A stretch of DNA of 64,000 nt from Promicromonospora iranensis (lineage in GTDB: Bacteria > Actinomycetota > Actinomycetes > Actinomycetales > Cellulomonadaceae), in NCBI RefSeq assembly GCF_028994805.1, contig NZ_JAJQQP010000001.1:1-64000 (forward strand), read 5' to 3'. The translations under genes and the position numbers were made by a program. The notes under the pieces were generated by a model. It had not been told where the DNA came from, made no database searches, and saw only the letters and a program-made list of their open reading frames with translations. Of the stretch, positions 59,360 to 64,000 are shown one piece after another. Positions within the stretch are counted from its first letter, which is position 1. The number at the start of each line of letters is the position of its first letter.

Positions 59360-61294
<1,935 letters not shown>

Positions 61295-61301
61295 TTTCGG
61301 G

Positions 61302-61354
61302 CGGCTGACGGCGCGACGACTTCCTCGGGTGGCTACCCGTAGCGCCGTCAGCCG
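61302..61354. terminator. Terminator hairpin after pckG
   Basis: CGGCTGACGGCGC (61302-61314) pairs perfectly with GCGCCGTCAGCCG (61342-61354). It starts 7 bases past the pckG stop. Downstream, CCCGGCCGGG occurs twice within 61365-61410. Confidence 0.82.
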
Positions 61355-61425
61355 TTCGAGCCGGTTCCCGGCCGGGTTATTGAGGCATCCCGGCCGGGTT
61401 TCTGCGCCCTCACGTCCATCTCACC

Positions 61426-61485
61426 TTCGAGGTCTAAGTTTCTCCGTTCTGAAACAGTTCAGAGGGGAGAAACTTAGACCTCGAA
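61426..61485. terminator. Perfect 20-bp-arm hairpin between pckG and trpS
   Basis: TTCGAGGTCTAAGTTTCTCC (61426-61445) pairs with 61466-61485. It is notably richer in A/T than its surroundings. The loop contains CTGAA/TTCAG. Convergent gap between pckG and trpS (stop at 61535). Confidence 0.85.
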
Positions 61486-61534
61486 GATGTGGGGCGCGTG
61501 GGCACCGGAAGCGCGAGGGGTCGCCGGCGCCGGG

Positions 61535-62680
61535 TCAGTAGCGCATGTTCATCAGGGTCCTGACGTCGTCCAGGGTGCGGTCCGCTATCGCGTTCGCCCG
61601 GGCGTTGCCCTGGGCGAGCACCTCGGCGAGGTGCCGGGGCCCCGCCGAGGCGAGCTCGCGGCGTCGGGCCCGGAGGGGGCGCAGGCCCTCCACCACCGCC
61701 TCGGTGACCACCGTCTTGAGCCGGCCCGCGCCGGCCGAGCCGACCTCGTCCGCGAGCACCTCCGGCGACGTCCCGGTGAAGTACGCGCCGACCTGGAGCA
61801 GGTTCGCGATCTCCGGCCGCCGCTCCGGCTCGTAGGTGATCACGCGGTCGGCGTCCGTCCTGGCGCGCCGGAAGTACGCCACGGTCTCGTCCTCGGTCGC
61901 GCGCAGCTCGAGCGCGTTCCCGCGCGACTTCGACATCCGGCGCCCGTCGCTGCCGAGCACGGTGGTCGACGGCGCGATGAGCGCGTCCGGCTCGGGGAAG
62001 TACGGCCGGGCCGCCGCGTACCGCTGGTTGAACCGCCGCGCGATGGTGCGCGTCATCTCGAGGTGCGGCAGCTGGTCGACACCGACGGGCACGAGGTTGC
62101 CGTGGCAGAACAGGATGTCGGCGGCCTGGTGCACCGGATAGGTGAGGAGCAGCCCGGAGATGCCGCGCTTCTGACGCAGCAGGGCGGCCTCCGCCTCGGC
62201 CTTGACGGTGGGATTCCGCTCCAGCTCCGCGACGGTGACCAGCGACAGGAACGGCAGCAGCAGCTGGTTCAGGGCGGGCACAGCCGAGTGCGTGAAGACC
62301 GTGCTGCGCTCGGGGTCGAGGCCGGCCGCGAGATAGTCGAGCAGCACCTCGCGGACGGTCGCGGGCAGGTCTCCGGCGTCGTCCCGGTCGGTGATGACCT
62401 GGTAGTCCGCGACGATCAGGAACACCTCGACGCCCAGGTTCTGCAGGCGTACGCGGTTGCCGACGGTGCCGAGCAGGTGCCCGAGGTGCAGCGCGCCGGT
62501 CGGGCGGTCCCCGGTCAGGACGCGGTACTCCCCCGGGTTCCGGGCGATCAGGTCCTCCAGGACCGCGGTGCGCTCGCGCGCGGCTGCGGCGGAGCGGGTG
62601 GTGCTACCCGGGACGGGGGTGCTCGGCTCGTGCGGGGTGGCCGACGTCGGCATGGTCGCCTCGGGCGTGGCGGTGGACAT
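61535..62680 (-). CDS. trpS: Tryptophan-tRNA ligase
   Basis: This 381-residue class I synthetase charges tRNA-Trp. It has the HIGH-like GALHLGHLLGT, the KMSKS-like RMSKSRG and a GVDQLPHLEMTR segment. A 35-residue low-complexity N-terminus precedes the catalytic domain; an internal start is possible. CGAGGAGATCCC precedes the ATG. Transcription is probably attenuated by the leader peptide and terminator upstream. Confidence 0.95.
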   Translation of the reverse strand: MSTATPEATMPTSATPHEPSTPVPGSTTRSAAAARERTAVLEDLIARNPGEYRVLTGDRPTGALHLGHLLGTVGNRVRLQNLGVEVFLIVADYQVITDRDDAGDLPATVREVLLDYLAAGLDPERSTVFTHSAVPALNQLLLPFLSLVTVAELERNPTVKAEAEAALLRQKRGISGLLLTYPVHQAADILFCHGNLVPVGVDQLPHLEMTRTIARRFNQRYAAARPYFPEPDALIAPSTTVLGSDGRRMSKSRGNALELRATEDETVAYFRRARTDADRVITYEPERRPEIANLLQVGAYFTGTSPEVLADEVGSAGAGRLKTVVTEAVVEGLRPLRARRRELASAGPRHLAEVLAQGNARANAIADRTLDDVRTLMNMRY

Positions 62681-62729
62681 GGGATCTCCTCGGTCAGGGA
62701 GCTGCCCACGGACGGCGTCGGGCGCAGAA

Positions 62730-62762
62730 AAGTCCCGGGCTGCGGTGAGCAGCTCGGGACTT
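62730..62762 (-). promoter_or_regulatory. trpS attenuator: terminator hairpin
   Basis: In transcript sense, AAGTCCCGAGCTGC (62762-62749) pairs with GCAGCCCGGGACTT (62743-62730), one mismatch, loop TCACC, followed by TTCT. The GCTGC of the first arm can alternatively pair with GCAGC at the end of the leader peptide, giving an antiterminator. Confidence 0.82.
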
Positions 62763-62784
62763 CTGTGCGGGTGGGCGCGTCAGG

Positions 62785-62829
62785 TCACGGCTGCGGGTGC
62801 AGCCGCCACCAGTTGAGCCCGTGCGTCAT
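62785..62829 (-). CDS. trpS leader peptide with tandem Trp codons
   Basis: A 14-codon frame encodes MTHGLNWWRLHPQP. Two adjacent TGG codons precede CGGCTGC-ACCC-GCAGCCG, a perfect hairpin over codons 9-14, then the terminator at 62730-62762. TATCCT six bases before the ATG fits a leaderless start. The NWW...HP pattern resembles known actinobacterial Trp leaders. Confidence 0.85.
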   Translation of the reverse strand: MTHGLNWWRLHPQP

Positions 62830-62868
62830 GCGGCCAGGATAGCGGGACCGGGTCTGCGCGCACAGGCC

Positions 62869-62899
62869 TTGACCTCAATCAAAGTTGAGGTCTTAGCGT
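62869..62899 (+). promoter_or_regulatory. MerR-type promoter of the oxidoreductase gene
   Basis: TTGACC (62869-62874) and TAGCGT (62894-62899) are 19 bases apart. GACCTCAA-6-TTGAGGTC (62871-62892) is a perfect palindrome between and over them. Long spacing with a palindrome is the hallmark of MerR-activated promoters. No merR gene is in the window. Confidence 0.75.
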
Positions 62900-62947
62900 G
62901 GCTGCACGACGTCGGCCGCACGGGCCGGCCGTGACGAAGGAGGCCGT

Positions 62948-63919
62948 ATGCGGGCTGTTCAGGTGCAGGAGTTCGGTGGGCCCGAGGTGCTGGTCCAGCG
63001 CGAGATCCCCGATCCGGTAGCAGGTCCGGGGCAGGTGGTGGTCCGGCTGGCTGCTGCAGACGTGATCTTCCTGGACACCCTGCTGCGTGGCGGGTGGGGA
63101 GGCGAGATGTTCCCGCTGGACCCGCCGTACGTGCCCGGATTCGGCGGCGCCGGGACCGTGGACTCCGTGGGCAGCGACGTGGACCCTGGTTGGGTCGGAC
63201 GCCGGGTCGTCGTGAGCGGGCCGGCCTACGCCGAGCTGGTGGCAGCGGAGCTCGGTGACGTCATGCCGGTGCCCGACGGGCTGGGTCTGCCCGAGGCCGC
63301 GGCCCTCCTCAGCGACGGCGTGACGGCGCTGCGGCTGGCCCGGCACGCGCCGGCGGACGTCGTGGAGGGCGCCTGGGTCCTGGTGGCCGCCGCGGCCGGT
63401 GGCGCCGGGTCCCTCGCGGTCCAGCTCCTGCGCGACGCCGGTGCTCGGGTCGTGGCCGCGGCCCGCGGCGAACGGAAGCTGAACCTGACCCGCGAGCTCG
63501 GCGCCGAGGTGGCCGTGGACTACTCCGAGGCCGGCTGGATCGACCGGGTCCGCGCGGCGACCGGCGGGTCCGGCGTCGCCCTCGCACTCGACGGCGCAGG
63601 CGCCGCGCTCGGGGAGCAGGTCTTCGAGACGGTGGCCGACGGCGGCCGTTTCGTCACCTACGGCACCTCGGGCGGGCGGTTCGCGGAGGTCGACCCGCTC
63701 CTGGCTCAGAAGCGGGAGATCGAGGTGATCAACGAGCTCGCGGGCGGCACTCCGGACCCGGAGCTCGTCCGCACCCTGCTGACGCAGGTCCTGGAGCTCG
63801 CCGCCGCGGGCCGGATACGCCCCACGATCGGCGCGACGTTCCCCCTGGCCGACGCCGCGGCGGCGCACACCTCGCTCGCGGAGCGGGCCACGCTCGGGAA
63901 GTCGCTGCTGCTGATGTGA
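62948..63919 (+). CDS. Quinone oxidoreductase-like MDR-family dehydrogenase
   Basis: This 323-residue NADPH-dependent oxidoreductase of the medium-chain family lacks the zinc-binding Cys/His set of alcohol dehydrogenases. FGGPEVLVQREIPDP and the nucleotide-binding VAAAAGGAGSLAVQLL mark the QOR branch. GAAGGAGG precedes the ATG. Probably responds to redox-active or electrophilic compounds through its MerR-type promoter. Confidence 0.9.
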   Translation: MRAVQVQEFGGPEVLVQREIPDPVAGPGQVVVRLAAADVIFLDTLLRGGWGGEMFPLDPPYVPGFGGAGTVDSVGSDVDPGWVGRRVVVSGPAYAELVAAELGDVMPVPDGLGLPEAAALLSDGVTALRLARHAPADVVEGAWVLVAAAAGGAGSLAVQLLRDAGARVVAAARGERKLNLTRELGAEVAVDYSEAGWIDRVRAATGGSGVALALDGAGAALGEQVFETVADGGRFVTYGTSGGRFAEVDPLLAQKREIEVINELAGGTPDPELVRTLLTQVLELAAAGRIRPTIGATFPLADAAAAHTSLAERATLGKSLLLM

Positions 63920-63946
63920 CCGGCGGCCGCGCAGGCACCGAGCACA

Positions 63947-63981
63947 TGCCCGACGGCGGGACGACGTCCCGCCGTCGGGCA
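63947..63981. terminator. Perfect 16-bp-arm terminator hairpin
   Basis: TGCCCGACGGCGGGAC (63947-63962) pairs perfectly with 63966-63981 over 3 bases, 27 bases past the oxidoreductase stop. Its core is that of the hairpin at 33544. A further gene may begin at the right edge. Confidence 0.88.
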
Positions 63982-64000
63982 GCGAGAATGGACCCGTGCC

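Follow-up and report, generated by a model that had tools for sequence, protein, structure and literature searches.

The short reading frame that precedes a tryptophanyl-tRNA synthetase (TrpRS) gene, trpS, in Promicromonospora iranensis raises the question of whether this gene is controlled through translation of its leader, and if so, by what mechanism. The window (i.e. the whole stretch of DNA analysed, 64,000 nucleotides) had been given a preliminary description, in which the locus was read as a tryptophan attenuator with a 14-codon leader containing two Trp codons upstream of trpS. Such a leader is indeed present: the ORF MTHGLNWWRLHPQP is read on the minus strand over 14 codons (62829-62785; ATG at 62829, stop codon TGA at 62787-62785), and its Trp codons UGG UGG (62811-62806) were invariant in 47/47 aligned close leaders. 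The -10-like box TATCCT, described as lying six bases before the ATG, was found there on the same strand (62841-62836). A TANNNT box occurred 6-7 nt before the leader start in 18/18 close leaders; the leaderless-type distance between box and start is conserved in related actinobacteria. No -35-like hexamer with at least 4/6 matches was detected at 15-20 nt spacing from TATCCT, and a generic scan of 62600-63000 returned 0 canonical promoters and 0 canonical terminators. From the box spacing it can be inferred that the trpS leader transcript starts at or adjoining the leader ATG, i.e. as a leaderless mRNA. Certain relatives have a leader that lacks just one codon and stays in frame, which supports leader translation.

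The gene downstream (61535-62680, minus strand) encodes an accessory-type TrpRS of 381 aa (TIGR00233, 221.3 bits, cut-off 176.75) and is preceded by the Shine-Dalgarno sequence (SD) AGGAG at 62686-62690. Its nearest named relatives come from Promicromonospora (85%). Since another trpS is located elsewhere in the same genome (G000:C4:101671-102741, 35% identity), the leader-bearing gene is a second, accessory TrpRS. Of the 56 family genomes having the window-type trpS, 53 contained one or more additional trpS matches. Three genomes (G010, G070 and G091, the last a single contig) contained the window-type gene only, the trpS family model giving one match in each; the leader with two adjacent Trp codons (WW leader) was kept in G070 (C1:836285-837331) and G091 (C1:1392272-1393363), and none was found in G010. 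In two other genomes the accessory gene was matched in two pieces (G036:C13:35065-36127) or with one internal stop codon (G013:C2:1748461-1749573), and both of these, perhaps decaying copies, keep the leader.

Among 48 more distant genomes, two or more trpS genes were present in 15/17 with a WW leader versus 5/31 without it (Fisher p 1.4e-6), and two of the latter five exceptions carry a leader with one Trp codon. After correction for the tree, the test gave no support for an association going further than common ancestry (median p 0.5 over 5 independent pairs). In the TrpRS tree, which contains neither the S. coelicolor nor the S. lividans gene, the window TrpRS grouped with leader-bearing genes of Streptomyces, Kitasatospora and Actinomadura (SH-aLRT 93, not starred; 58 for the fork above). 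The leader was strongly clustered on the tree of 80 TrpRS proteins, requiring 8 changes versus 27 in shuffles (0/500 as low). Two records occupied unexpected places in this tree, L016 (labelled Sphaerisporangium) among Cellulosimicrobium and L045 (labelled Xylanimonas) among Actinomyces, and their labels may be wrong.

Alignment of trpS upstream regions in related actinobacteria, which had been proposed as a check of the attenuator, was then informative about both components, as WW codons and hairpins turned out to be conserved. A WW leader with C-terminal QP was present in 17/17 of the nearest trpS relatives (the first 17 of 80 loci). When the 300 nt upstream of these 17 loci were dinucleotide-shuffled (50 runs), ATG-started WW leaders appeared on average in 0.02 loci per run versus the 17/17 observed; requiring in addition a TANNNT box at a distance of 5-8 nt from the ATG gave 0.00 versus 17. 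Of the other 63 loci, 62 had enough upstream sequence, and in 17 of these a WW leader starting with ATG lay in the 300 nt upstream (mean of 0.14 in shuffles), the box being present in 16 of the 17. Within the family, 57 window-type trpS genes (at least 59% identity; hand-counted, one gene being in two pieces) were found in 56/120 genomes. A WW leader located 6-7 nt after TANNNT preceded 53/57 of them, the window included, or 52/56 other than the window's. The four remaining loci comprised one W-x-W leader and one one-Trp leader, both with the same spacing, and two loci without a Trp leader. No WW leader preceded any of 20 housekeeping-type trpS genes sampled in the same family, one of which had a W-x-W frame upstream, without the box. 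While N-terminal leader codons vary, the reading frame, the Trp codons, the stop codon and the box spacing are conserved. A covariance model built from the 47 close leaders matched, in the 120 genomes, only those 47 trpS upstream loci; as these are the model's training set, only the absence of further matches is informative, and more divergent leaders are missed by the model. The occurrence of WW leader and hairpins before trpS is not due to chance. A separate case is L042 (Nocardioides sp. CER19), with a WWW leader MTRNAQWWWLTE at -117 from the trpS match, no box spacing and no simple 1:2 hairpin by scan, which is possibly a variant design.

Four RNA segments, all on the minus strand, can be delimited between the Trp codons and the gene. 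Segment 1 (62810-62799), the 5' arm of hairpin 1:2 in local folding, holds the Trp codons and GGCUGC. Segment 2, GCAGCCGUGACC (62794-62783), contains the leader stop codon and has two alternative partners, segment 1 and segment 3, GUCCCGAGCUGC (62760-62749); the latter is also the 5' arm of a terminator-like hairpin whose 3' arm is segment 4, GCAGCCCGGGAC (62743-62732). Segments 2 and 3 are supported by folding, alignment and a swap test (see below), and segment 4 by folding and alignment. Segment 2 starts 8-11 nt past the last Trp codon, an offset that matches the usual ribosome footprint. The mutually exclusive hairpins claimed in the preliminary description were recovered, with two alternative hairpins (62810-62799 with 62794-62783, and arms 62769-62749 with 62743-62723) and local fold energies of -21.3, -17.1 and -27.0 kcal/mol for 1:2, 2:3 and 3:4, respectively. 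The 153-nt region from leader to trpS folded better than 200/200 shuffles (z -4.66).

As for conservation, segments 1-4 were nearly invariant among the 47 close leaders, and their letters differ between divergent clades. Standard pairs made up 98.3% (1:2 and 3:4) and 99.0% (2:3) over 44 distinct rows, versus 18-52% when the partner was slid. No two-sided pair changes were found within the close leader set for 1:2, 3:4 or 2:3, so that covariation is silent there.

The pairing of segments 2 and 3 was compared across clades by exchanging partners between leaders, in three successive forms of the swap test. In the first form (29 leaders), the median fraction of foreign partners that were equal or better was 0.29, several of the picked hairpins being wrong by eye. 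The second form, which covered 22/24 leaders because no 1:2 hairpin was obtained for L042 or L076, yielded 405/10000; here, ties in the choice of hairpin trimmed some arms, the window's included. For the third form, which covered 23/24 leaders (L042 dropped), we corrected the tie-break and allowed a slightly wider loop range and slightly wider segment windows. Own 2:3 partners were then better than those permuted across clades (-15.95 versus -12.83, 0/10000), a result to be read with the fact that the correction was made after the weaker second-form result was known. The near relatives L067, L069, L071, L079 and L081 were included in the first form and absent from the second and third.

We consider it highly likely, judging from these sequence features, that the element is a ribosome-mediated (leader-peptide) transcription attenuator of the accessory trpS. 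The tryptophan attenuation originally suggested for this locus is supported by the conserved WW leader, the hairpins and the leaderless spacing. According to this model, transcription would begin on the leader AUG or immediately beside it, and a ribosome would load on the leaderless mRNA. When charged tRNA-Trp is ample, the ribosome would get to the stop codon within segment 2 and mask this segment, allowing 3:4 to form and transcription to stop before trpS. When charged tRNA-Trp is scarce, the ribosome would stall at UGG UGG and mask segment 1; segment 2 would then pair with segment 3, no terminator would form and trpS would be transcribed. If the leader were not translated at all, 1:2 would form and 3:4 would terminate. 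Stalling, termination at 3:4 and the response to tryptophan are thus predicted features of the model.

The least secure part of the model is the terminator. The preliminary description placed one after the leader, and this stood only in part: a strong 3:4 hairpin is followed by UUUU (62731-62728), yet no terminator was called in the generic scan, and the short U-run is missing from many relatives outside the window's genus. Within the genus, the window and most of the aligned members have a U-run, but it is mostly lacking in Cellulosimicrobium, Isoptericola and Oerskovia; in the window, some outer pairs of the terminator hairpin use U-run bases. These observations would agree with another output of the same leader sensor, in which 3:4 is no intrinsic terminator and Rho-dependent termination or opening of the trpS SD takes its place. 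The region of S. lividans trpL2 is likewise described, in the accessible part of that report, as having no uridine-rich stretch (PMC8079986). Moreover, CUCC was found 4-22 nt before the SD in 39/54 SD-bearing loci (e.g. window 62686-62709) and the SD was closed in the local fold in 26/54, so that an SD-closing hairpin is possible according to the folds. However, this comparison is without a good control, an SD having been found in just 5/20 housekeeping trpS genes. Furthermore, the window's own 3:4 hairpin is strong (-27.0 kcal/mol) and followed by UUUU, and segments 2-3-4 are laid out as in classical attenuators. A different output is unlikely; the conserved set of Trp codons, stop codon and four competing segments is that of classical ribosome-mediated attenuation.

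It is far less probable still that the peptide is unimportant and the leader RNA is a structured element recognised by a small molecule, a protein or, as in a T-box, a tRNA. Strong conservation of RNA structure in the leader region would fit such a scheme, but frame, Trp codons and box spacing are kept while N-terminal codons vary, and no T-box or riboswitch matched at E up to 1 in 60000-64000. Finally, a chance ORF with chance hairpins in GC-rich DNA, where short ORFs and hairpins are generally known to be common, is hardly conceivable given the shuffle controls, the absence before 20 housekeeping trpS genes and, above all, the conservation that already refutes it.

Among Rfam models, T-box and other families were rejected as candidates, because the seven matches with E no higher than 1 were all to animal miRNA models and fell short of the respective gathering scores. 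The Rfam Trp leader family likewise gave no match in 60000-64000.

A further sequence, segment 5, GUGGGCAGCUC (62709-62699, minus strand), is complementary to segment 3 plus loop (62755-62745) and overlaps the anti-Shine-Dalgarno; its role is hypothetical. The 3:5 pairing had at least 10/11 positions in 32/47 loci and 11/11 in 20, and segment 5 was located 7-12 nt upstream of the trpS SD in the 41 measurable loci. Own 3:5 partners beat permuted ones (0/2000, in a permutation that ignores clades), and the own best 3:5 score had a chance below 0.05 in mononucleotide shuffles for 31/47 loci. Modelled SD openness averaged 0.40 with 3:5, 0.15 with 3:4 and 0.14 with 2:3 over the 41 loci, the SD being more open with 3:5 than with 3:4 in 38/41; this effect partly follows from the anti-SD within segment 5. 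On this modelled basis, one could conceive of a five-segment, two-level attenuator, in which 3:5 would preclude the terminator hairpin and at the same time free the trpS SD, although we regard it as doubtful. The stability of 3:5 falls on average about 8 kcal/mol short of that of 3:4, and together with the blindness of the permutation to clades this keeps 3:5 at the level of a hypothesis. With the SD shut in the 2:3 state, the starved state would also need passage to 3:5. In Oerskovia, the matching change may instead serve a local hairpin (by eye). If true, closure of the SD under both 3:4 and 2:3 would mean that leaky transcripts are silenced in translation as well. The TRAP system of Bacillus has an SD-blocking back-up, of which the 3:5 scheme would be the leader-peptide counterpart.

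How does the element relate to known systems? The attenuator of the E. coli trp operon has a 14-codon leader with two adjacent Trp codons and four segments pairing as 1:2, 2:3 and 3:4. The window shares the 14 codons, the WW and the four-segment pairing with it, but differs in its target (trpS), its apparently leaderless start and its short U-run. In Streptomyces, Vecchione and Sello (2010) reportedly described an auxiliary, antibiotic-resistant TrpRS whose gene is controlled by ribosome-mediated transcriptional attenuation, and S. coelicolor is said to have two TrpRS (Kitabatake 2002).

Attenuators with Trp codons were predicted by Seliverstov et al. (2005) before trp operons of Streptomyces and Corynebacterium and before trpS2 of S. 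avermitilis (PMC1262725). As far as the available parts of that paper go, the window resembles these in its repeated UGG and in a terminator and antiterminator sharing a complementary triple, while Promicromonospora, Cellulomonas and Xylanimonas are unmentioned there. Unlike the trp-operon members of that set, as they appear in the same parts of the paper, no two-Trp leader precedes the best trpE match of the window's genome (511.5 bits, just below the family cut-off of 517.7): no short ORF with at least two Trp codons was found in the 500 nt upstream. The accessible sections of a 2021 study on S. lividans (PMC8079986) describe a leaderless trpL2 located before trpS, which has two hairpins and lacks a uridine-rich stretch. 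The Streptomyces auxiliary TrpRS and the trpL2-trpS pair, as far as these sections describe the latter, share with the window a short Trp-bearing leader before trpS, hairpins in between and a second TrpRS in the genome. Judged on the same sections, i) a leaderless start is reported for trpL2 and suggested by the box spacing in the window, ii) the window peptide follows WW.L..QP while trpL2, MMTRTCTQLWRAA, has one Trp, iii) the segments differ, and iv) the window has a stop codon inside segment 2 and a U-run.

The idea that a synthetase gene is an unusual target of attenuation has to be withdrawn, as such targets were already described in Streptomyces in what could be consulted of both papers (PMC1262725, PMC8079986). 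Attenuation of trpS is thus not new in itself, and the window element is very probably a further case of the Streptomyces-type arrangement. Among the titles listed in searches of the open-access literature, none describes a trpS leader from the window's family.

An attenuated spare TrpRS of Streptomyces type would be common in the family that includes Promicromonospora, Cellulosimicrobium, Isoptericola and Oerskovia, where the element has a fixed leaderless spacing and its strongly conserved core can be detected with a covariance model. Expression of the window trpS is expected to be inducible by a shortage of charged tRNA-Trp; very probably, to judge from the leader, more TrpRS is made only when charged tRNA-Trp runs short. 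The two genomes in which the attenuated TrpRS is the sole one (G070 and G091) bear on how an essential synthetase might be placed under the control of such a switch.

Some neighbouring features of the window were also recorded. Divergent from the trpS leader lies a quinone-oxidoreductase-like gene (62948-63919, plus strand; best model TIGR02824, 177 bits, below cut-off). It is preceded on the plus strand by a perfect 8-nt inverted repeat, GACCTCAA-N6-TTGAGGTC (62870-62892), which resembles a SoxR operator. At the other end of trpS, a long inverted repeat (61411-61500; 43-nt arms, 81% complementary, 4-nt loop) is located between the gene and a convergent phosphoenolpyruvate carboxykinase gene. 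This repeat is probably a two-way terminator, and it was the source of the weak miRNA-model matches.
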